Part shown: positions 1,612 through 13,611 of the stretch, in pieces
How the letters are laid out: the number at the start of each line of letters is the position of its first letter
How positions within the stretch are numbered: the stretch's first letter is position 1
Assembly: GCA_003505155.1 (NCBI GenBank)
Contig: DNYJ01000004.1
Span: 5,587-20,265, forward strand
Origin: Candidatus Uhrbacteria bacterium
GTDB lineage: Bacteria; Patescibacteriota; Patescibacteriia; UBA9934; UBA10169
Reading direction: 5' to 3'
DNA length: 14,679 nucleotides
Notes under the pieces: model-generated
What the model saw: the letters and a program-made list of their open reading frames with translations, nothing else
Told to the model about the DNA's origin: nothing
The model's database searches: none
Made by a program: the position numbers and the translations under genes

Positions 1612-3543
<1,932 letters not shown>

Positions 3544-3596: not shown

Positions 3597-5558
3597 ATGT
3601 CTAGAGAACAACAAGGTTCCGGTTTGGAACATGGACGCGAGGAAGGAGAATCTTCCCTCGATGACTTAGACGCTCTTCTAGCATCTGCCGACGTGGCGGC
3701 GGTTGAAGCGGTGCGCGCGGCAAGAGCCGGAGAAATCGCTTCGGTGGAGGAGAAGAAAAAGCAATCAAAGGCGGCCGCCCTGCGCGCGGAGGAACTTCAG
3801 CGAGCTTATGCTCTCCTTTCCTCGGAAGATGCTGGCGTGGATCATGTTGGATACGAATGGGCGTTACAGGCCGCCGAAGAGGAAACCGGCATTGCGGCTC
3901 CCGAGGGGTCAAAGGAGGTGATCGCGCGTCTGCGCAAAGTAAGCGATGCCCTTCGACGCCTGACGGCGGTTGAACCAAAGACGGAAGATCTTGAAGGCAA
4001 GATCGAAGCACTTAGGGACGTACGCGAACAACTGTTTGAAAAAGCGCGTGATTTTGCGATGGAAGCTTTGGAATCGGTGAAACTAAAATATCGAGGCGAG
4101 GAATCCGAATTTGAAGAGAAGTTTCGCGTGTTGCAGGCAAGCCCGCTCACCGCGCGTCTGGAGTTTCCTCCCGATTCTCCCGAAGCGCGCGAACAGGGGA
4201 TGAAGATGGAGATCATGGAGCTTTTTTTCAGACCGGCGGCAAAAGCCATGACAGAGTGGGATGGAGAAACGTTCGCGATGAAAGAGAAGTTGAAACCGGC
4301 TCATGAAGCTTTGGCTCATGAAGATGCATCCAAACAAGCTAATGAACATGCAAGTTTCAAAGCGCTCAGGGATGCCATGCTCGCGTTGCGTGGTAGCGCG
4401 CAACTCAAGGAAAGTGACGGTAATTATTCTTGGATGCTAAAACGGACACTAACAAGCGAACTAGAAGAACGAGAAGGAGCTATCCAAGCGCGAGAAGAGG
4501 CTCAAAGAAAAAATCTCGTTTTCTTTGAAGCGAACCGCATGAGGGTCGAGTCGGTTCTTGAAACGATCACTTCCGAAGATGAATTGCGAACGGCTCTGAC
4601 GGAACTGCGTCAACTTGTCACCGCATGGTCTGGCAACTTCCTCGAACCGGAGAGGATGTTGGAGAACGTAAATAAGATGAACCACCCCGCGTCTTATCGG
4701 CTTTACGACGCTTTCGTGCGTTATGGCAGTGGTTTCATCTCACCTACGGACAAGAAGGATCATATCTCTCCAAGAAGACAACTGGCGGGCAAAATAACGC
4801 GATTCAATGGGAATACATCTGGATGGTCTGACGAACCAATCCCGGAGCATCGAAGGCAAAAGTACCAAAGAGAGGCAGATGATATGACCTTTGCTAATAT
4901 CAAACGCGCTCTTGATAAGATTGTTCCTCCTACACCGTCGTATCATTCGGAAGACTTTGCAACCTTGACGGATAAGCGCAAAGCGGCGGGGTGGACGGAG
5001 TCAAAGCTTGGTGCCCTGGTTCCTCCGGATGGCAATGTGCGCGCTCTCGACAAACAGTTTGCCGCTACCATTGAACGTCTCTCTCATCCAATCGCTTCGG
5101 CAGAGAAGGCTTTTGACATCAAGGGTGAAGGCAGCGAGTTGAGAGTCTATACGCTTGGGCAGGCAAAGGATTTATTGCTCCGCGCTCGGCGTGATGCTCG
5201 AGCCATACTCGTGAGGACGGTTGCGGAGAGAGATCGGGAGGTCGCCGGAAAAGAGAGAAGCATTGAAGAAGTACAGATCGAAAATAGGTCTTTGGCATTT
5301 CAACTTGGAGTTGTAAGGACACGAAACGAAGAATTGAAGGCCTCGGGTGCTGAAAGTGAAACAGGCTTCACAAAGCGTTTGGCTGAAGTAGGGGATGAGG
5401 TGAACAAAATCGAGAAGAGAGCGAGAGTTGCTGAAGGAAGACATGAGAAACTCTTGCTAGCATTACAAGATGCGTTGGGTGAGAAAAAATCCGGTCTCCT
5501 TGGCGGCGACAAAGCTCTCCGCGTTCGCATACAAGCAATCCTTGAAGCCGCTTCCTAA
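3597..5558 (+). CDS. Unrecognised coiled-coil-rich cytoplasmic protein, 653 residues
   Basis: I do not recognise a family. The protein is highly charged and mostly helical, with Glu/Arg/Lys/Ala-rich stretches typical of coiled coils at about residues 15-75, 110-170, 280-315 and 535-635. A less charged central part (about 350-500), with more aromatic residues, may be a folded domain. I see no cysteine, no signal peptide and no membrane segment, so a cytoplasmic scaffold or filament-like role is possible but unproven. The ATG at 3597 has no Shine-Dalgarno; a TAGAAT hexamer upstream could be a -10 box, but no convincing -35 accompanies it. The gene follows atpC by 53 nt on the same strand and ends before strong palindromes. 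Codon use is continuous with the atp genes and I see no frameshift. Confidence 0.85.
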   Translation: MSREQQGSGLEHGREEGESSLDDLDALLASADVAAVEAVRAARAGEIASVEEKKKQSKAAALRAEELQRAYALLSSEDAGVDHVGYEWALQAAEEETGIAAPEGSKEVIARLRKVSDALRRLTAVEPKTEDLEGKIEALRDVREQLFEKARDFAMEALESVKLKYRGEESEFEEKFRVLQASPLTARLEFPPDSPEAREQGMKMEIMELFFRPAAKAMTEWDGETFAMKEKLKPAHEALAHEDASKQANEHASFKALRDAMLALRGSAQLKESDGNYSWMLKRTLTSELEEREGAIQAREEAQRKNLVFFEANRMRVESVLETITSEDELRTALTELRQLVTAWSGNFLEPERMLENVNKMNHPASYRLYDAFVRYGSGFISPTDKKDHISPRRQLAGKITRFNGNTSGWSDEPIPEHRRQKYQREADDMTFANIKRALDKIVPPTPSYHSEDFATLTDKRKAAGWTESKLGALVPPDGNVRALDKQFAATIERLSHPIASAEKAFDIKGEGSELRVYTLGQAKDLLLRARRDARAILVRTVAERDREVAGKERSIEEVQIENRSLAFQLGVVRTRNEELKASGAESETGFTKRLAEVGDEVNKIEKRARVAEGRHEKLLLALQDALGEKKSGLLGGDKALRVRIQAILEAAS

Positions 5559-5565
5559 AAAATAA

Positions 5566-5582
5566 TTGTCACGACGTGACAA
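5566..5582. promoter_or_regulatory. 17-bp palindrome TTGTCACGACGTGACAA
   Basis: Two 8-bp arms (TTGTCACG and CGTGACAA) meet around one central A, 7 bp after the preceding stop codon. A perfect short dyad with almost no loop suits a dimeric DNA-binding protein. It could also form a 7-bp stem with a 3-nt loop, but no T-run follows. Function is inferred. Confidence 0.5.
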
Positions 5583-5590
5583 GTTATGTT

Positions 5591-5636
5591 CGGTGAGTAA
5601 AGATGTCCGATCGGATACTTTTACTCACCGATTTTT
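5591..5636 (+). terminator. 40-bp palindrome followed by a T-run, probable intrinsic terminator
   Basis: Bases 5591-5630 form a near-complete palindrome. The outer arms CGGTGAGTAAA and TTTACTCACCG (11 bp) match exactly. The centre TCCGATCGGA (5606-5615) is itself a 10-bp palindrome, and four mismatched positions lie between. Five T residues follow at 5632-5636. It ends transcription from the coiled-coil gene and perhaps the whole atp unit, and it isolates the next gene. The symmetric centre is unusual for a terminator loop, so a second role as a protein-binding site is possible. Confidence 0.7.
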
Positions 5637-5638
5637 AG

Positions 5639-5667
5639 TTGACAATTAGTGGGAAAAGGTACATCAT
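5639..5667 (+). promoter_or_regulatory. Possible promoter for the carbonic-anhydrase-like gene
   Basis: A perfect -35 box TTGACA lies at 5639-5644, just after the terminator T-run. The hexamer at 17-bp spacing is CATCAT (5662-5667), a weak -10. The position between a terminator and a stand-alone gene supports the call, but the weak -10 leaves doubt. Confidence 0.4.
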
Positions 5668-5720
5668 TTCGCCGCCTTTCGCATGAAGCGATGGCGTAGC
5701 TGTGGGAGAAGCCGGACGTG

Positions 5721-6347
5721 ATGAGCATTTCTGACGAGACTCGAACCTTCCTCCAATCCCTGCGCGACCCCTCGGAACGCGTCCTCACGGACTTCGTGCC
5801 CGAGGAGCTCCGGCTTGACGAGACTGGCGCCATCGTCGTCGTCTGCTCCGACTGCCATCAGCGCAAGGACATGTCGGCGTTTCTCGCCCGCGTAGCCGAG
5901 GCCTGCGGTGTGTCCGAGCTCTACCACAAGCTCAAAGTGAACGCGGCGGGCATCGCGCTTGATCCCGACTCGTCTCTGCACCGAAAGGGCAAGCATCGCC
6001 TCCTCACCCTCGAGGAGGATATCCGCGATACGATGCTCCCATCAGTCAAGGGCATCACGACGGTCATTCTCATCGCGCACTTCCCGTGCGGGAAGGCCGG
6101 GCTCGAGGGCATCAGCGACGAGGAACAGATGCAGTCGCTTCTGGTGGGCAAGGCTCGGCTCAAGGAGCATCTCTACGTCCCGCGCGTGGTCTGCGCCGTC
6201 CATGTGGACTGGGGCGGCCACAACCGCCGCATGTACCGCATCACGCGACGCGATTGGGAGGCGTGGTGCCATCGGCATGATCGAACGCCGACCTTCCGCC
6301 GAATTTCTCCGGTTGCACCATCCGACTTCGTCGTCCTCGCCGATTAG
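5721..6347 (+). CDS. Divergent beta-carbonic-anhydrase-like protein
   Basis: The beta-carbonic anhydrase pattern is visible. Cys42-Ser-Asp44-Cys-His46 stands where the family has Cys-x-Asp-x-Arg. LKVNAAG (around residue 75) resembles the RNAG segment. LLTLEEDI precedes a hydrophobic strand and then His120-Phe-Pro-Cys123-Gly, the HxxCG zinc motif. Enzymes of this family hydrate CO2 with zinc held by Cys, His and Cys. Two things are odd: the Asp-Arg dyad is Asp-His, and Cys42 to His120 is 78 residues against about 56 in E. coli Can, implying an insertion around the basic stretch HRKGKHR. Catalysis is therefore uncertain; a CO2 or bicarbonate sensor or partner subunit is possible. There is no signal peptide or membrane segment. 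GGGAG (5704-5708) precedes the ATG at 5721, and an adjacent GTG at 5718 would add one residue. Codon use is more C-ending than its neighbours by eye, which may point to transfer. Confidence 0.6.
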   Translation: MSISDETRTFLQSLRDPSERVLTDFVPEELRLDETGAIVVVCSDCHQRKDMSAFLARVAEACGVSELYHKLKVNAAGIALDPDSSLHRKGKHRLLTLEEDIRDTMLPSVKGITTVILIAHFPCGKAGLEGISDEEQMQSLLVGKARLKEHLYVPRVVCAVHVDWGGHNRRMYRITRRDWEAWCHRHDRTPTFRRISPVAPSDFVVLAD

Positions 6348-6369
6348 AACCGGCGTCTGGACCAACCTC

Positions 6370-6391
6370 GCCCTGTAGTCATCTGCAGGGC
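6370..6391 (+). terminator. Possible terminator hairpin after the carbonic-anhydrase-like gene
   Basis: GCCCTGTA (6370-6377) pairs with TGCAGGGC (6384-6391) through eight pairs including one G-T wobble, around a 6-nt loop GTCATC, 23 nt after the stop codon. The following CTTCGCATTTG is only weakly T-rich, so termination may be partial. Confidence 0.4.
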
Positions 6392-6433
6392 CTTCGCATT
6401 TGAGATTTCAGCAAAGTTACTCTTGACATCCCA

Positions 6434-6462
6434 TTGATCCGTTTCTCGTTCGGGTCTACAAT
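6434..6462 (+). promoter_or_regulatory. Promoter of the six-gene complex I/hydrogenase-like operon
   Basis: TTGATC at 6434-6439 and TACAAT at 6457-6462 (5 of 6 to the -10 consensus) are separated by exactly 17 bp. Transcription would begin near 6469, giving a leader of about 13 nt before the ATG at 6482. This rules out a longer reading of the first gene from the in-frame TTG at 6434, which would lie inside the promoter. A separate TTGACA at 6423-6428 has no matching -10 at normal spacing. Confidence 0.6.
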
Positions 6463-6481
6463 CTTGGCTGATTTTTACCCT

Positions 6482-7009
6482 ATGTATATTTTGAATCTGT
6501 TTCAGACGCTATTCTTGGGTCCCAAAGTGACAGAACACCCATCGGCATTTGCGTCGGATGATGAACTGGAGACGGCCGGAAGCGAGCTCAAGCGGATCAT
6601 TGATGCTCTCTATGGCGGCCGATCACTTCGCATCCGCGCGGTTGACGGAGGGTCTACCAATGCGGAAGAAATCGAGCTCACGGCGCTTGGCAATGCTTAC
6701 TATGACATCGAACGTTTTGGACTTTCCTTCGTTGCTTCTCCCCGCCACGCCGACATGCTGTTTGTTACGGGCCCTGTAACTCGCAATCTTGAAACTGCGG
6801 TCAAAACGACCTATGAAGCCACGCCACATCCCTGCATCGTGGTGGCGGTGGGGGACGGAGCCTGCACGGGCGGCATCTGGAAAGATTCTTATGCCGTGGT
6901 CGGAGCGGTTGAGAATGTCATTCCCGTTCACCTCAAAATCCCCGGCGATCCGCCGTCGCCCGCGCAGATTCTGAAAGCTCTGATGGGCGTTTTGAAGCAT
7001 CCTGCCTAA
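6482..7009 (+). CDS. NuoB/HyfI/HycG-like small subunit lacking its Fe-S cluster cysteines
   Basis: The fold family is the small (NuoB-like) subunit of complex I and group 4 NiFe hydrogenases, which normally holds the proximal Fe4S4 cluster (N2) with four cysteines. The frame of the domain is well kept: GGSTNAEEIEL (residues 56-66), DMLFVTGPVTRN, VVAVGDGACTGGIW (120-133) and IPGDPPSP (153-160). Against the canonical GSCNGCDIE, GDCAxxGG and IPGCPP, the ligands read Thr59, Glu62, Gly126 and Asp156, so all four canonical positions are lost. Cys128 is two residues off. It therefore probably cannot hold the cluster. The protein is 175 residues and soluble, and would cap the membrane arm with the large subunit. 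The ATG at 6482 is chosen because the promoter covers the upstream in-frame TTG. It is first in the operon, with 3 bp to the next gene. Confidence 0.85.
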   Translation: MYILNLFQTLFLGPKVTEHPSAFASDDELETAGSELKRIIDALYGGRSLRIRAVDGGSTNAEEIELTALGNAYYDIERFGLSFVASPRHADMLFVTGPVTRNLETAVKTTYEATPHPCIVVAVGDGACTGGIWKDSYAVVGAVENVIPVHLKIPGDPPSPAQILKALMGVLKHPA

Positions 7010-7012
7010 CCT

Positions 7013-8998
7013 ATGTCGTTTTTCATTCCCTATCTTCTCTTTGCGAGCCTCTCGCTTACCGTTATCTCGGGCATCGCGGCTCTTGGCGGGCGTGCGATGA
7101 TCTTTCATAAGCTCTCGCAAATTTTCCTCGCGCTTTCCGGCCTTCTGGGTATGGCGGCAAGCGTCGCGGTGTTCCTTTCTCCCGAAATAGGCATGCGCGT
7201 TTCTATCGCTTCCGCCAAATTTTCTCCCGTGTTCGGACTGGATCTGTTTGGCGCTGTCTTCTTTTTTCTCGTTTCTCTCGTGAGCGTCTTGTGCGCCGTT
7301 TACGCCGTGCCGTACCTGCGTTCTTATCGGACGACGTATCATCTGCCAAGCCTGAACGCGCTCGTGGCGGCTTTTGTGCTCGGCATGCAGATCGTGATCG
7401 TATCTACCGGACCTTTTCCTTTCATGATCGGCTGGGAAATCATGTCTCTCGCCTCGTTCTTTTTGGTCGTGAGCGACCGCTCGGCGGAATCTGTCCGCGC
7501 CGCGCTTCTGTACTTGGTCATGACGCATCTTGGAGCCGCCGCCATTCTCGCCGCGTTCCTCCTGTTGGCTCAAGGATCCTTCTTTGCGGATTTTTCCCTG
7601 CTCACAAACTTGGCTGGGACGGCACCAGCATGGGTACTTCCGGTTTCGTTCGGTCTGTTTCTCTTCGGCTTCGGTTCCAAGTCTGGTCTCGTTCCGTTCC
7701 ATGTATGGTTGCCCGAAGCTCATCCGGCCGCCCCGAGCCATGTCTCCGCTCTCATGTCGGGAGTGATGTTGAAGATTGCCATCTATGGATTTTTGCGTGT
7801 AACGCTCTTTCTTCTGCCTCCCATCGGAACAACGGCGTCGCTCGTGATTCTTGGGTTCGGACTTCTCACGGCGCTCTACGGAGTTCTCTACGCCGCCCTT
7901 GACCGCGACTTCAAGCGCACGCTCGCCTTCAGCAGTATCGAAAATATCGGTCTCATCTTTACGATGATCGGCATTTCATTTTTTGCCGCCTCCCGCGGCT
8001 TGGAAGTGTTGTTTGAGGTGGTGTTCTCCGCCGCCGTCTTTTTCACGATCGCCCACGCCCTCTTTAAGTCGGGTCTCTTTCTTATTTCAGGAGTCGTGGT
8101 GCGCGCGTTCCATTCTAGAAGTCTCGAGAAGATGGGCGGACTTTCCAAACGCCTGCCGGTTTTTTCCGCGTTCTTTTGCATCCTCGCGCTTGCCGCGGCG
8201 TCCCTGCCGCCCTTCGGTCCCTTTTTTGGCGAGTGGATGTTTTTCCAGAGTCTCCTTGGGCATTTCTCTTTGCATGATCCGTTTGTGAACGCCATCCTGC
8301 TTCTCACGTTTGCCATCTCGGCGCTCGTGGGAGGACTTGCGATCTTTGCTATGGTGAAGCTGTTTGCCCTCTCCATGCTTGCGGAGTCGAGAAGCCCGGA
8401 GAACGCTTTGGAGCACTGCGAGCGGCCGGCTTGGGGAGAGATGTTTTCTATCGGAGTCTTTACTTTGAGCGTTCTTCTGCTTGGACCCTTTGCGCCCGCG
8501 GTCATGGCTCTCATTCGGGGAGAAGCCGCTGTCCCATCGCTTTGGCTCCTCTCCGTCGGTTCGGCGGCGATTCAGCCTTCCGTCCTTCTGCTCTTTCTCT
8601 TCGCGTGCGTGCTTGCCGTTTGGATTCTGCGCCGTCTCATGAGCCGCGTGGAGCATGAACGCGCGTATCACCGCTGGGATTGCGGAGCGCCCGTAAACGC
8701 TTCCATGGAATACACCGCCACAGCTTTTTCCGCTCCCATTCGCTTCTTCTTCCGGCTTATCCTTCGCACCAAGAAGAGCGTGGATGTCTTGCCGGTTCTC
8801 GCGACCAACCCCTGGATTGCCTCAAAGAGTTTCAACATGAACCTTCGGTCCATTTGGATGGATTTCGGGTATCTTCCCCTCGGTCGATTTTTTATCGGGC
8901 TTTCCCTTCAGGTGAAGAAAATCCAGAGCGGGAATATCCGGTTCTATCTTTTCCTGATTTTTGCCGCTCTCATTTTGACTCTCCGCATCGCCCTATGA
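7013..8998 (+). CDS. HyfB-like proton-translocating membrane subunit (NuoL/MrpA-type)
   Basis: This is a 661-residue membrane protein (E. coli HyfB is about 670) with roughly 16 hydrophobic segments, of the antiporter-like subunit family that moves H+ or Na+ in complex I, hydrogenase-4 and Mrp systems. Hallmarks of an ion path are intact: Glu142 in GWEIMSLASFF, Lys223 in GFGSKSGLVPFHVWLPEAHP, and Lys352 in HALFKSGLFLISG. The PSHVSALMSG stretch after the HVWLPEAHP loop is typical of the family. The C-terminal third (after about 440) is less conserved, with further membrane segments and a soluble patch around 535-590. The ATG at 7013 has no clear Shine-Dalgarno and starts 3 bp after the preceding stop. 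The end overlaps the next gene by 4 nt (ATGA). Gene symbol hyfB would fit by similarity, but the complex is not a hydrogenase. Confidence 0.93.
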   Translation: MSFFIPYLLFASLSLTVISGIAALGGRAMIFHKLSQIFLALSGLLGMAASVAVFLSPEIGMRVSIASAKFSPVFGLDLFGAVFFFLVSLVSVLCAVYAVPYLRSYRTTYHLPSLNALVAAFVLGMQIVIVSTGPFPFMIGWEIMSLASFFLVVSDRSAESVRAALLYLVMTHLGAAAILAAFLLLAQGSFFADFSLLTNLAGTAPAWVLPVSFGLFLFGFGSKSGLVPFHVWLPEAHPAAPSHVSALMSGVMLKIAIYGFLRVTLFLLPPIGTTASLVILGFGLLTALYGVLYAALDRDFKRTLAFSSIENIGLIFTMIGISFFAASRGLEVLFEVVFSAAVFFTIAHALFKSGLFLISGVVVRAFHSRSLEKMGGLSKRLPVFSAFFCILALAAASLPPFGPFFGEWMFFQSLLGHFSLHDPFVNAILLLTFAISALVGGLAIFAMVKLFALSMLAESRSPENALEHCERPAWGEMFSIGVFTLSVLLLGPFAPAVMALIRGEAAVPSLWLLSVGSAAIQPSVLLLFLFACVLAVWILRRLMSRVEHERAYHRWDCGAPVNASMEYTATAFSAPIRFFFRLILRTKKSVDVLPVLATNPWIASKSFNMNLRSIWMDFGYLPLGRFFIGLSLQVKKIQSGNIRFYLFLIFAALILTLRIAL

Positions 8999-9918
8999 CC
9001 ACGATTGTCGCACTCATTCTGCAACTTGTCCTCGTGCTTCTTCTCTCACCTTTGACGATCGGTTTGGTCCGGTGGTTCAAGGCTCGCTTGCAAGGGAGGC
9101 TTGGAGCTCCTCCGTGGATTGTGTACACGGCTCTTTTGACCACGCTTAAAAAACAGCACGTCATTTCGGAGAACGTCTCTTGGGTGTTCCGTTTCGTCCC
9201 GTTTGCGGTTTTAGGAATGGCGGCGTTCTTGGTCCTTTCACTTCCGCTCCTGTTCTCAAACGGCGGACTTCCTCAAATTGATCTTTTCATTCTTGCGGGC
9301 GTGCTCTCGCTCGGTTCCGTCTTCCTTGTTTTTGGCGGACTGGATGCCGGAACGGCATTCGGAGGCATGGGAGCAAGCCGCGAGATGACGATCGCCGCGC
9401 TCGTCGAGCCGGTGGCACTCATCACGTTTTCTGCTTTTGCCGTGGTGGCGGGAAGTTCTTCCATTCAAGACGTGTTTGGAAACGGCATGTCCGTGTTCTC
9501 CCATCCGGCTTTGGTCTTGAGTTTCGCCGCGCTGGTTTTGGTCGCCCTTGCGGAAAACGCCCGTTATCCGGTGGACAATCCGGCCACGCATTTGGAACTC
9601 ACCATGGTGCACGAGGCCATGCTCTTGGAGTACTCGGGTCCGTATCTCGCCATGCTTGAGTATGCTTCCTCGATCAAGTTGACGGTGTTTCTCGTTCTGC
9701 TTGGAAACCTCATCTGGGTGAAGCCGTCTGCCGCTCTCGCTCCCGAGGCGATCGGTTTGGCGGCCGCAGGCATCCTCTCTACGCTCATCGTCGGATCATT
9801 CGCTCTTGCGCTCCTCGAGTCGAGCATCGCGAAGATGCGGTTCTTCCGCCTGCAGGAATACATGAGCGTTGCGTTCTTCCTTTCTCTCTCCGGATTTATT
9901 CTCGTGTTTCTTCTATGA
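8995..9918 (+). CDS. HyfC/HycD/NuoH-like membrane anchor subunit
   Basis: This 307-residue protein, the same length as E. coli HycD, has about eight membrane segments. It belongs to the NuoH-like family that joins the soluble arm to the ion-moving arm. GGMGASREMTIAALVEP (123-139) and ENARYPVDNPATHLELTMVH (187-206) are signature stretches of the hydrogenase-type branch; Glu207, Glu130 and Glu187 are charged residues of the kind expected in the coupling path. The frame is open further upstream to 8680, but the ATG at 8995 is chosen because it forms an ATGA overlap with the previous stop and gives the family's normal N-terminus. It ends in a 4-nt overlap with the next gene. In true complex I the NuoH-NuoB contact forms the quinone site; with no N2 cluster here, that use is doubtful. 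Confidence 0.93.
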   Translation: MTTIVALILQLVLVLLLSPLTIGLVRWFKARLQGRLGAPPWIVYTALLTTLKKQHVISENVSWVFRFVPFAVLGMAAFLVLSLPLLFSNGGLPQIDLFILAGVLSLGSVFLVFGGLDAGTAFGGMGASREMTIAALVEPVALITFSAFAVVAGSSSIQDVFGNGMSVFSHPALVLSFAALVLVALAENARYPVDNPATHLELTMVHEAMLLEYSGPYLAMLEYASSIKLTVFLVLLGNLIWVKPSAALAPEAIGLAAAGILSTLIVGSFALALLESSIAKMRFFRLQEYMSVAFFLSLSGFILVFLL

Positions 9919-10580
9919 CCAACGCTTCGCTTTTTTCCATGCTCATGATCGGGCTCTTCGTTGCGGGCACGCTTTCCTGTTTTTCCACGATGCGCCTGCA
10001 GAGTCTTTTGCGGTCGTATGCCTTTTCTTCCGCGGCGTTGGGAGGTTTGGCGCTCGGCTTGGCCGTGGAGGAGTCTGCAATCCACCTCATCACCGTTGCC
10101 GGCGCCGTAATCGTCGTAAAATCGTTCCTGGTGCCGTCCGTGATTTCACGCATGGCGGAACGTTCGCACGCATCGAAGCGCCTCGCTTCCTCCCTGCGCC
10201 CTTCGGCGAGCTGGTTTGTCGGCGGCGCGGTGTTTGCCGTCGGGATTTATCTGGCTTTGCGCTCGCCACTCTTTGTGGGCGGATTGGAACCCACTCAAAT
10301 GACCGCACTGCTTCCCATTTCGGTCGGAGTGGTGTTTATGGGTTTTGCGATGATGATTCTTCGAAAAGACGTGCTCTCCCAACTGCTTGGATTTCTCGTT
10401 TTAGAAAACGGCATTGCGGCTTTCTCCTTGAGCGCCTTGGGAGGCATTCCCGTGGCCATCGAATTCGGCGTGTACTCCGCCGTCCTCATCGGAGCGATTC
10501 TGATGGCGACGTTGAGCGGTCGCGTTCAACAACTCTTTGGCACTCATGATACCTCTCGTTTGAGCGAATTGACCGACTAA
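9915..10580 (+). CDS. HyfE-like (NuoK-type) membrane subunit
   Basis: At 221 residues (E. coli HyfE is about 216), this is the HyfE/HycP-type subunit, whose C-terminal half resembles NuoK. About six membrane segments are visible. Glu164 in LLGFLVLENGI and Glu183 in IEFGVYSAVLIGAILMA lie inside membrane helices, where NuoK carries its ion-path glutamates. A charged loop at about residues 77-93 (RMAERSHASKR) separates the halves. The C-terminus (QLFGTHDTSRLSELTD) is soluble. The start overlaps the preceding gene by ATGA and the next gene begins 2 bp after the stop, so all are co-translated. In M. tuberculosis the equivalent position is Rv0085 (hycP). Confidence 0.88.
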   Translation: MTNASLFSMLMIGLFVAGTLSCFSTMRLQSLLRSYAFSSAALGGLALGLAVEESAIHLITVAGAVIVVKSFLVPSVISRMAERSHASKRLASSLRPSASWFVGGAVFAVGIYLALRSPLFVGGLEPTQMTALLPISVGVVFMGFAMMILRKDVLSQLLGFLVLENGIAAFSLSALGGIPVAIEFGVYSAVLIGAILMATLSGRVQQLFGTHDTSRLSELTD

Positions 10581-10582
10581 GT

Positions 10583-12061
10583 ATGCTTCTTTTTCTTGCC
10601 TTTGGAATTCTCCTTCTTGCCGCCCTCCTCTCCCTTCTCCCGAAGATGAGCGGGCGTTCCTTGCGATGGACCGGCCTCGCCTCGTCCGTCTTGATACTCT
10701 GCGCCATCCTTTGGTCAGTCGGTCCCGTCCTCTTGGGGTGGACGGATCCGCGACTTACGTCTTGGTGGGAGGTCAGTCGTTTTGCGTCCTTGATGGGAAT
10801 CCTTGTGGCGTGGCTCTACGTCTGCGCCATGCTCGTCAGCCTTCACTATCTTCACGTCGAAGAGCGCAAGGGGATCGTCTCTATCCGCCAGATGCGTTTG
10901 TATATGGTGTGCGTTCCGCTCTTCGTGCTTTCCATGCTTGCGGCGATCTTTGCCGACAACGTCGGGATTCTCTGGGTCGCTCTCGAGTCCACGACGCTCT
11001 CCACAACGCTTCTTGTCTCCTTCTACGGAAAGAAATCTTCGATGGAGGCGGCATGGAAGTACATCGTTATCTGTTCTACGGGCATTGCGCTCGGACTCTT
11101 CGGGATCCTCATTTTGGGTTACGCCGGAGCACAAGCGGGACTGCAGGAGGCATCAGCATTCAAAATCAGTCTTCTTCGCGGCGCAACTGGATCCATGGAT
11201 CAGGGCATCGTGATGTGGGCTTTCGTGTTTCTTTTTATCGGGTTTGGCACGAAGATCGGACTCGTGCCCATGCACACGTGGCTTCCCGACGCGCACAGCA
11301 AAACGCCGTCTCCTGTTTCCGCCATGCTCTCGGGCATCTTGCTCAATGTCGCTTTCTTCACTCTTCTGCGGTTTAAGGGCATCGTGGACTTAACGCTTAA
11401 GAGCGGTGCGTGGACCGATCAATTCTTCCTCGTCTTTGGCGTCCTCACGATTCTCCTCCCTTCCATCGTCCTCTTGTCCCAGCGCAACTACAAACGCATG
11501 TTGGCTTACCACAGCGTGGAGCACATGGGTATCATGGCGTTTCTTGCGGGTCTTGGACCTTTGGGAATGGTCGGATTTACCATTCACATGATCGGACACG
11601 CCCTCTCAAAGTCGGCATTGTTCTTTGGCGCCGGCGAATTGCTCCAGCGGTTTGAGTCCACGAAGTTTCATCTGGTACACGACGTATTAAAGCGCGCGCC
11701 TCGCACGGGATTGCTCTTCTTGGCCGCCGCGCTGTTCTTGATCGGCGTGCCTCCGTCCGGACTCTTTTTGAGCGAGTACGTTCTTGTGGGTACGGGGCTC
11801 GTCGCACATCCGTTTCTTTCCGCCGCGGCATTGGCAGGAATCACGATGGCGGGACTCGGGCTCATGCGGCATTTGTTCGAACTCCTGTTTCATCCGACGA
11901 TTCCGGAAGAGAAACAGGATGTTCCGGTTGAAACATGGAATCTCACTCACACGGTTATGGCGCTCCAGCTCGGCATCGGTCTCATCTTCGGCCTTTGGAT
12001 GCTTTCGGGGCAAGGCTGGCCTCTTCTTTCTTCCGTGAGTGCTGATCTCCTTTCTCTATGA
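10583..12061 (+). CDS. HyfF-like proton-translocating membrane subunit (NuoM/NuoN-type)
   Basis: This is the second antiporter-like subunit of the complex: 492 residues with about 14 membrane segments. The key ion-path residues are present: Glu135 in ALESTTLSTTLL, Lys224 in GFGTKIGLVPMHTWLPDAHS, and Lys343 in HALSKSALFFGAGELL. The motif HTWLPDAHSKTPSPVSAMLSG is a strong signature of the HyfF/NuoM group. The ATG at 10583 lies 2 bp after the preceding stop, without a good Shine-Dalgarno, and the end overlaps the next gene in ATGA. Together with the HyfB- and HyfE-like subunits it gives the complex at least two full antiporter-type channels. No residue needed for ion movement appears lost, in contrast to the two soluble subunits. 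Confidence 0.93.
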   Translation: MLLFLAFGILLLAALLSLLPKMSGRSLRWTGLASSVLILCAILWSVGPVLLGWTDPRLTSWWEVSRFASLMGILVAWLYVCAMLVSLHYLHVEERKGIVSIRQMRLYMVCVPLFVLSMLAAIFADNVGILWVALESTTLSTTLLVSFYGKKSSMEAAWKYIVICSTGIALGLFGILILGYAGAQAGLQEASAFKISLLRGATGSMDQGIVMWAFVFLFIGFGTKIGLVPMHTWLPDAHSKTPSPVSAMLSGILLNVAFFTLLRFKGIVDLTLKSGAWTDQFFLVFGVLTILLPSIVLLSQRNYKRMLAYHSVEHMGIMAFLAGLGPLGMVGFTIHMIGHALSKSALFFGAGELLQRFESTKFHLVHDVLKRAPRTGLLFLAAALFLIGVPPSGLFLSEYVLVGTGLVAHPFLSAAALAGITMAGLGLMRHLFELLFHPTIPEEKQDVPVETWNLTHTVMALQLGIGLIFGLWMLSGQGWPLLSSVSADLLSL

Positions 12062-13611
12062 CGTACGAACAAATCAAACTTTTCCTTCCCTCCGCGTCTT
12101 CACGGGTGAACGACGAAATTCGATGCCGCGTGGAGGCACCGCTCTTTGCCGGAATCGTGGAACGGCTGATGAAAGAAGGCGGATTGCCGCTTTCGAGCCT
12201 CTACGCCACGGATGATCGAGCCACCGATAAGTCGTTTGGCATCCATGTCATTTTGTCTTTAGATGAAGAGAGGCTTTGGATGACGCTCTCCACGTCTGTC
12301 TCGGGAAATGATCCGACGTATCCGTCTCTGACGCGATCCGTCATGGCAGCGCATTGGTACGAACGCTATGCGCAGGATATGTTCGGCATTGTCCCCGAGG
12401 GGCATCCGGATCCTCGTCGTCTCGTCCATCACGAAAACATTCCCGTAGGGACGCATCCACTTCGGAAAGATTTTCGATGGGATACGAAATTAGATCATGC
12501 GCAAGTTCCTTATCCTCTGCATCATGTGGAGGGGGAGGGGATCTATGAGATTCCCGTGGGACCCATCCATGCTGGCATTATTGAGCCCGGGCATTTCAGA
12601 TTCAATGTGGCCGGAGAGCGGATCATCACACTTGAAGGCAAGCTGTTCTTCACGCACAAGGGAGTCGAGAAACTCCTCGAGGGCAAGACGCCTTTGGAGG
12701 CTCTGCCGTTTATCGAACGCCTCTCCGGAGACATGGCCGCTTCGCACGCGCTGGCGTTTTGCCAAGCGATAGAAAAAATTTCCGAGACGGTTGTGCCTCC
12801 CCGCGCGAAGGCGATCCGAACGGCACTGTGCGAGCTTGAGCGCATCACGATGCATCTGCACGATCTTGCCAACATTACGGGAATGGGGACAGGATACACG
12901 CTCATGGCGGCGAACGGATTCCGGATCAAGGAACGTCTCGTGCGGCTTTCTCAAACGCTTTTGGGAAATCGGTTTTGGAGAGGGGCGATCGTTCCTGGCG
13001 GCGTCTCTCGTGATTGGACAAGCGGGGAATGCGCTCTCATCAAGACGACAGCGACGGAAGCGGTTAAAGAGATGCAGGATCTCGTGAAGATGGCTTTGCA
13101 GTCCGATGGATTGCGGGAGCGTCTTGAGACGACGGGCATCTTGACGCGCGAAGCGGCGGTGGCGTACGGAGCCGTTGGTCTTCCCGCCCGCGCCTCCGGA
13201 GTTGCGCGCGATGTCAGGCTCTCCCATCCCTACGCGGCGTATGCACAACTCCCATGGGAAATCGTGACGGCTGAAGAAGGAGACGTCTATGCTCGTTATC
13301 GTTGTCGAGTGGAGGAGCTGGAAATCTCTCTGCGCGTTCTCTTGGCGGCTGTGGATCTTCATGCCGGAGAACCGGTTGTCACGCGCGTTTCCCTCAAAGA
13401 CGGATGGGGCGTCGCGGCCGTTGAATCATGGCGAGGAGAAATCCTCACGGCGGTTCATCTGAAAAATGGGAAGATCGAGCGTTGCTTTCCTCGCGATCCG
13501 TCGTTTTGTAACTGGCCTCTCTTTGGCGAAATCGGTCCCGGCAACATCGTCCCTGATTTCCCCCTTTGCAACAAATCGCTCAACTTGAGTTATTCCGGAA
13601 CGGACATGTAG
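12058..13611 (+). CDS. HycE/HyfG-like large subunit (NuoC-NuoD fusion) lacking NiFe-site cysteines
   Basis: The 517-residue protein fuses a NuoC-like domain (about 1-150; WYERYAQDMFGI 100-111 and THPLRKDF 132-139) to a NuoD/hydrogenase large-subunit domain (about 160-517; IPVGPIHAGIIEPGHFRF from 165). In group 4 hydrogenases a CGxC near the start of this domain and a DPCxxC near the end hold the NiFe metal. Here the first reads Ser223-Gly-Asp-Met226 (context IERLSGDMAASHALAFCQ). The C-terminal end reads NIVPDFPLCNKSLNLSYSG, with lone Cys484 and Cys504 and no CxxC. It therefore cannot be a NiFe hydrogenase. This matches energy-converting-hydrogenase-related complexes, whose large subunits are known to lack the metal site. 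The ATG at 12058 overlaps the previous stop. It is the last gene of the operon. Confidence 0.9.
   Translation: MTYEQIKLFLPSASSRVNDEIRCRVEAPLFAGIVERLMKEGGLPLSSLYATDDRATDKSFGIHVILSLDEERLWMTLSTSVSGNDPTYPSLTRSVMAAHWYERYAQDMFGIVPEGHPDPRRLVHHENIPVGTHPLRKDFRWDTKLDHAQVPYPLHHVEGEGIYEIPVGPIHAGIIEPGHFRFNVAGERIITLEGKLFFTHKGVEKLLEGKTPLEALPFIERLSGDMAASHALAFCQAIEKISETVVPPRAKAIRTALCELERITMHLHDLANITGMGTGYTLMAANGFRIKERLVRLSQTLLGNRFWRGAIVPGGVSRDWTSGECALIKTTATEAVKEMQDLVKMALQSDGLRERLETTGILTREAAVAYGAVGLPARASGVARDVRLSHPYAAYAQLPWEIVTAEEGDVYARYRCRVEELEISLRVLLAAVDLHAGEPVVTRVSLKDGWGVAAVESWRGEILTAVHLKNGKIERCFPRDPSFCNWPLFGEIGPGNIVPDFPLCNKSLNLSYSGTDM

Follow-up and report, generated by a model that had tools for sequence, protein, structure and literature searches.

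It is an old question how complex I couples electron transfer to the movement of protons at a distance. A gene cluster of an uncultured Candidatus Uhrbacteria bacterium raises it in an unusual form: what does a complex I-like membrane machine do when it has no recognisable site for electrons? The cluster lies in a window of 14,679 nucleotides (contig DNYJ01000004.1, positions 5,587 to 20,265), which is the whole stretch of DNA analysed here and the frame for all coordinates given without another label. The window's genome comprises 976 kb in 43 contigs and is rated 100% complete with 2% contamination. Six adjacent plus-strand genes at 6482-13611 encode NuoB-, HyfB-, NuoH-, HyfE-, HyfF- and NuoCD-like subunits, as read from the open reading frame (ORF) list, Pfam and NCBIfam. 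An initial annotation of the window had described them as a complete six-subunit ion pump with no redox centre. The gene set is complete as described, and the evidence supports an entire complex I-like membrane arm being retained in a complex that has no recognisable redox centre, a finding that holds for many relatives as well. The complex of this small bacterium probably moves ions without passing electrons. A natural lineage that lacks every known redox centre, yet in which the head, the residues of the antiporter subunits and the NuoH-like channel have all been retained, provides a test of what the head does beyond passing electrons, and bears on the use of ion gradients by bacteria of the candidate phyla radiation (CPR) that have no respiratory chain.

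Metal sites of the soluble head

The large subunit (12058-13611, +; 517 amino acids) is a NuoC-NuoD fusion of the HyfG/HycE type, with Pfam matches to Complex1_49kDa (5e-40) and Complex1_30kDa (3e-21) and a HycE alignment at 1e-68; among the matches listed, its closest named relatives are labelled Patescibacteria and Uhrbacteria. When aligned with subunit 5 of Escherichia coli formate hydrogenlyase, its L1 motif reads ERLSGDMAAS against DRVCGICGFA and its L2 motif NLSYSGTD against DPCYSCTD, and S223, D225, S511 and G514 occupy the positions of the four nickel-iron cysteines. The small subunit (6482-7009, +; 175 amino acids; NuoB/MbhJ/HycG fold, NuoB/HyfI type) presents GGSTNAEE, VGDGAC and PGDPP where formate hydrogenlyase subunit 7 has CGGCNGCE, YGACGN and PGCPP, with T59, E62, G126 and D156 (T-E-G-D) at the ligand positions of the [4Fe-4S] cluster. 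Glu62 and Gly126 recur in 120/120 small-subunit matches (the best 120 out of 7,999 with a score, a set that includes the protein of the window itself or a near-identical one), and Ser223, Asp225, Ser511 and Gly514 in 120/120 large-subunit matches (the best 120 of 7,944, own protein counted). Together, the alignments and the conserved replacements bear out the earlier claim that both soluble core subunits have lost their metals. Off the old ligand positions, C118 and C128 of the small subunit were also found in all 120 of the best 120 of 7,999 matches.

In the available text of PMC6349859, Ehr proteins are related to group 4 large subunits but lack the Ni/Fe-coordinating residues, a definition that makes no mention of the small-subunit [4Fe-4S] ligands. 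Here S223/D225/S511/G514 stand in place of the four cysteines, and antiporter-like, NuoH-like, NuoB-like and NuoC/D-like genes, the Ehr subunit set, occur in one cluster. Judged by its sequence, the complex is an Ehr complex, which the initial annotation had not recognised. The two CxxC-type NiFe motifs of a group 4 [NiFe] hydrogenase are absent, and the genome has no HypD match.

The function of Ehr is called unknown in PMC10284858; PMC6349859 describes it as possibly working with formate dehydrogenase and suspects redox-coupled charge transfer, and Geobacter Ehr is raised on formate (PMC7894505), all in the available parts of these papers. Jaffe et al. 2020 described a monophyletic CPR Ehr clade without the metal cysteines of the large subunit (PMC7304191), probably the same clade as here, and this part of the loss is already published. 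In the available main text of that paper we found no mention, for Ehr, of the small subunit, the membrane residues, the absence of ferredoxin or ATP synthase linkage; its supplements lie outside this comparison. New, as far as the literature searched extends, are the small-subunit loss, the fixed residues of the antiporter and NuoH-like subunits, the proximity of ATP synthase genes and the apparently proton-type nature of the other pumps found in the genome.

PDB matches identify formate hydrogenlyase, membrane-bound hydrogenase (MBH) and complex I as the best solved relatives of the subunits. Formate hydrogenlyase/hydrogenase 4 and MBH have homologous subunits, but the complex here lacks their nickel-iron site, iron-sulfur (Fe-S) cluster ligands and ferredoxin-like subunits. 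It shares the architecture of membrane arm and Q-module with respiratory complex I; unlike there, N2 ligands are missing, and no 51K domain, ferredoxin-type domain or quinone route was found in the genome. Mrp antiporters have antiporter-type subunits with the same transmembrane Glu/Lys residues and, as we propose for the present complex, perform no redox chemistry, whereas NuoH-, NuoB- and NuoCD-like subunits are kept here and none of the six proteins belongs to an MrpE/F/G-type family.

Distribution of the redox-free form and its membrane arm

Relatives were drawn from a scan of named genomes, in which the best 80 of at least 579 confirmed stretches were kept, together with three plasmid loci and a further 15 taken from a survey that covered 379 genomes of the phylum. 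In the survey, a small-subunit match of any kind occurred in 16/379 genomes, with 11 complete redox-free loci and one fragment. As labelled, redox-free loci belong to Uhrbacteria, Moranbacteria, Magasanikbacteria, Staskawiczbacteria, Daviesbacteria and Levybacteria, to the three bacterial bins L006, L025 and L031, and to G177; an archaeal-type group carries the labels Altiarchaeales, a Methanosarcina bin and a Dehalococcoidales bin, and L038, labelled Thermoleophilia, groups with Daviesbacteria. On the Altiarchaeales contig (L069), the redox-free Ehr cluster at 4865-12037 is followed in tandem by a second HyfB-C-E-F set at 15793-20831.

Across 22 distinct redox-free loci, none of the small-subunit cysteines is left in 12 and one is left in 10, and at least two acidic residues stand at the four old ligand positions in 21/22. 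By contrast, three or four of the cysteines are retained in 39/39 of the remaining Ehr loci whose small subunit could be read (38 CCCC, 1 PCCC). These other Ehr complexes (Nitrospira, Methylobacter, Rokubacteria, Rhizobium and Rhodococcus plasmids and, according to the published account, Geobacter) have the same subunit set, no ferredoxin subunit in the loci shown and, in most, an S-D-S-G-type large-subunit motif as here; they differ in retaining the small-subunit cysteines, all four of which are gone in the window, and redox-free loci often have ATP synthase genes close by. Cluster loss in the small subunit across 22 loci of several CPR phyla and archaeal bins is new as far as the literature searched extends: no earlier report of it was found in the available text of the papers, supplements lying outside that search. 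In the large subunit, S223, S511 and G514 are present in 21, 22 and 21 of the 22 redox-free loci and in 38, 39 and 38 of the 39 that keep the cluster. Because these residues are equally conserved in both kinds of Ehr, the head is suggested to have a function independent of the cluster. The redox-free lineage also suggests that Ehr complexes at large might work without their last Fe-S cluster.

In the tree, 18 redox-free rows fall together (SH-aLRT 86), three archaeal-type rows stand apart, and L113 is alone on a long branch. Independent losses were considered for this split but set aside, since one common origin is also compatible with the data (p-AU 0.294, with L113 and L114 left out as long branches). 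An AlphaFold model from 50 diverse rows reached pLDDT 90; another from 32 close rows reached 53 and was unusable.

The membrane arm is encoded by four overlapping or closely spaced genes. They specify a HyfB-like antiporter subunit (7013-8998, +; 661 amino acids; Pfam Proton_antipo_M 4e-47; NCBIfam hydrogenase 4 subunit B 4e-139), a NuoH/HyfC/HycD-like subunit (8995, the ATG, to 9918, +; Pfam NADHdh 1.5e-23; HycD alignment 3e-25) whose start overlaps the HyfB end, a HyfE-like, NuoK-type subunit (9915-10580, +; 221 amino acids; NCBIfam hydrogenase 4 membrane subunit 1.2e-15; no Pfam family match) and a HyfF-like antiporter subunit (10583-12061, +; 492 amino acids; Pfam Proton_antipo_M 2e-48; NCBIfam hydrogenase 4 subunit F 2e-96). 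All NCBIfam matches of the cluster's proteins lie under the curated cut-offs of those models.

Residues were counted over distinct redox-free loci with duplicate contigs removed; L068 ends before HyfB and HyfC. HyfB E142, K223, K254, K352 and E407, aligned with MBH, formate hydrogenlyase and Mrp, are kept in 21/21 loci, as are the NuoH-like coupling-channel residues E142, E191, D198, H203 and E205 (the numbering starts at base 8983, four codons ahead of the ATG). HyfF E135, K224 and K343 and HyfE K69 and E164 are kept in 22/22. Among the membrane residues singled out by the initial annotation, HyfB E142/K223/K352, HyfF E135/K224/K343 and HyfE E164 thus hold throughout, but HyfE E183 is not general: this position is Glu in 13, Gln in 8 (L021, L037 and their kin) and Asp in 1 of the 22 loci. 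Since the comparison loci mostly keep the same residues, their conservation is best read as that of a working arm, not a new one.

ATP synthase linkage and the search for an electron supply

The atp genes, previously placed about 3 kb upstream, are indeed there. The F-type ATP synthase genes atpG (701-1609), atpD (1730-3109) and atpC (3106-3543), all on the plus strand and named by eye from the ORFs, encode a candidate partner; the end of atpC at 3543 lies 2.9 kb ahead of the Ehr cluster, and more of the atp operon, with a c-subunit (PF00137), is found upstream on the same contig. ATP synthase genes occur in the fetched flank of 10/27 redox-free-type loci and 0/64 other loci, the latter coming mostly from other, often larger genomes. 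The linked loci comprise 9/22 with a verified small subunit and 1/5 typed by the large subunit alone (L009, L015, L020, L023 and L027). Within the survey of 379 genomes, such linkage is seen in 3 of the 10 complete loci other than the window's (G305, G234 and G189), against roughly 3% expected by a rough estimate (P 0.003, relatedness uncorrected). In L006, L007 and L022, which span two subgroups, the small-subunit open frame starts 252, 106 and 115 bases after atpC. The possible ATP synthase partnership suggested by the initial annotation finds support in how often the genes lie near each other.

The likely currency of this circuit was assessed in the 12 genomes that carry a redox-free gene (G226 as a fragment). 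An ATP synthase c-subunit is present in 12/12. The one on the window's contig lacks the Na+ motif, as do all of the eight that were read. A membrane pyrophosphatase was found in 8/12 genomes, with no match in 4/12, and 7/8 have the K+-independent, H+-type lysine, the exception being G234. The pyrophosphatase of the window's genome (C20:33491-35419; L132) carries the K+-independent signature GNTTKA. This class is described only among H+ pumps in the available text of PMC10897367, and the enzyme should accordingly pump H+ independently of K+. The window's genome thus shows other pumps that look proton-type. A Na+ circuit is disfavoured by c-subunits without the Na+ motif and by the 7/8 H+-type pyrophosphatases, and H+ appears likelier than Na+ as the currency; exchange of another cation with H+ may still occur.

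The earlier observation that no ferredoxin-like gene is present holds for the cluster and beyond it, with 0 Fer4_7 and 0 Fer4_10 matches in the 976-kb genome, both models finding all 14 control genomes. The NuoF/RnfC-type 51K domain was found in 0/12 genomes, the window's included, other Fe-S and flavin families not having been searched for, and haem-copper oxidase in 0/12. The two ferredoxin models and the NuoF-type domain search therefore returned no Fe-S subunit encoded elsewhere, which the initial annotation had named as evidence that would count against it. Its proposed check of quinone synthesis and hydrogenase maturation gave no UbiA and no HypD match in the window's genome; among the 12 genomes, a UbiA-type prenyltransferase occurs in 3 and HypD in 1. 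The latter gene (G087, C38:4707-5702) lies in a genome that has a redox-free Ehr cluster and no Fer4_10 match. Fer4_10 at E <= 0.01 was found in 0/10 genomes with a complete redox-free cluster and in 120/379 across the phylum (Fisher p=0.034, or p=0.35 counting G177 and G226, which have matches; relatedness uncorrected).

Proposed function and alternatives

Within the complex I/group 4 hydrogenase superfamily, we place the complex in the Ehr branch as a member without redox centres, and tentatively favour, at a little short of an even chance, the reading that it acts as an ion transporter or exchanger coupled to the proton-motive force, with the head as a non-redox gate or ligand site. In this proposal, protons would be moved, alone or in exchange for another cation, down or against a proton-motive force generated by two proton-type machines, the ATP synthase/ATPase and the membrane pyrophosphatase. 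The NuoB/NuoCD head would pass no electrons; it would serve as a gate or ligand-binding site and control the antiporter-like subunits via the retained NuoH-like channel. An arm without electron input could conduct, because isolated antiporter modules of complex I conduct protons when the proton-motive force alone drives them (PMC11496545, available text). That no electrons would flow through the complex is well supported by the subunit sequences; what drives it we infer. A bolder claim, which we find doubtful, is that a widespread branch of the complex I superfamily transduces energy without a redox cofactor. Its head would be an engine powered by a ligand or substrate instead of redox chemistry, coupled in either direction to H+ flow through the complete arm and trading energy with the ATP synthase encoded nearby; such a branch would have arisen at least once, possibly separately in CPR bacteria and archaea.

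Several points weigh against, or limit the case for, a pmf-coupled transporter with a non-redox head (pmf, proton-motive force). The ATP synthase contrast alone is not a fair control given the genomes of its comparison loci, and 17/27 redox-free-type loci have no ATP synthase gene in the available stretch, although the flank that could be inspected ranges from kilobases in several of them to next to nothing in others. By Pfam, no MrpE/F/G-type family occurs among the six proteins, so there is no obvious Na+ path. No transport activity of an Ehr complex was found in the available text of published descriptions, and other NiFe-less relatives are regarded as redox machines: PMC6349859 suspects that redox reactions in the cytoplasm are linked by Ehr to charge transfer, and names Mbx as a relative that uses ferredoxin. 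The ferredoxin association is weak against the base rate of the phylum, consistent with the redox-free reading but not proof of it. In G177 (L113; 9659-10411, -), the small subunit has no cluster ligands of its own (D-A-D-N) but carries one fused Fer4 domain, matched below the cut-off; it is a possible intermediate, and it points to the existence of a redox-linked form, a counter-example to a simple story. Finally, with S223, S511 and G514 near-invariant across Ehr, the head shows more conservation than a simple plug would require, a hint that it performs chemistry or binds a specific ligand.

The main rival reading takes up this last point: the head would perform non-redox chemistry at a Ser/Asp site, with or without a divalent metal on the replacing carboxylates, and turn over or transport a substrate coupled to H+. 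Near-invariance of the three residues with and without the cluster fits this, as do the acidic residues at the old ligand positions in 21/22 small subunits, but no family match points to a substrate or cofactor. Just upstream, a 209-amino-acid protein (5718-6347, +) with CSDCHQR and HFPCGKA motifs resembles carbonic anhydrase by eye, and CO2-hydrating antiporter-like systems (DAB, NDH-1MS) have a carbonic-anhydrase-like partner subunit. A divergent copy lies at the same place in G305 (L104 10481-11281, -), the sole recurrence among 15 survey loci scanned. Against its relevance, the protein has no Pfam or PDB match, BLAST showed nothing related to it in the ORFs next to 22 other loci, and L006, L007 and L022 have no room for it between atpC and the small subunit; a carbonic anhydrase as required partner was rejected on these grounds. 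Non-redox chemistry in the head is, as a whole, credible but on the improbable side.

Alternatively, the complex could serve the ATP synthase as a sensor or as a controlled leak for protons, responding to a metabolite or to the proton-motive force and opening to prevent wasteful ATP hydrolysis or over-energisation. Nearby ATP synthase genes, the failure to find the 51K domain and haem-copper oxidase in 12/12 genomes, and the passive proton conduction of dissected modules (PMC11496545, available text) are in line with this, but six subunits with full coupling residues are costly to keep for a leak and the gene is patchy in the phylum (16/379 genomes); we consider it unlikely. An electron-transfer pump fed by a soluble partner or by a flavin, or through a non-canonical metal site, is quite unlikely. 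It would agree with the cysteines kept in 39/39 other Ehr loci, the published proposals that tie Ehr to formate dehydrogenase (PMC6349859, PMC7894505) and cite Mbx as ferredoxin-using (PMC6349859), all from the available text, the Fer4 fusion of G177 to a ligand-less NuoB domain, and C118 and C128 in the best 120 of 7,999 matches. Neither soluble subunit has a canonical ligand set, however, and the window's genome gave no Fer4_7/Fer4_10, NuoF-type domain or UbiA match, other flavoproteins and Fe-S families not having been searched for. Loss of all metal sites in a small genome might also suggest a decaying relic without function. This is very improbable, as the frames are intact, the motifs are near-invariant in the best 120 matches of each soluble subunit, and the membrane residues are fixed across lineages of several phyla, a conservation that already contradicts decay.

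Between atpC and the Ehr cluster, the window also encodes a 653-amino-acid charged protein (3597-5558, +) that has no Pfam family above cut-off and, by eye, is probably a coiled coil.

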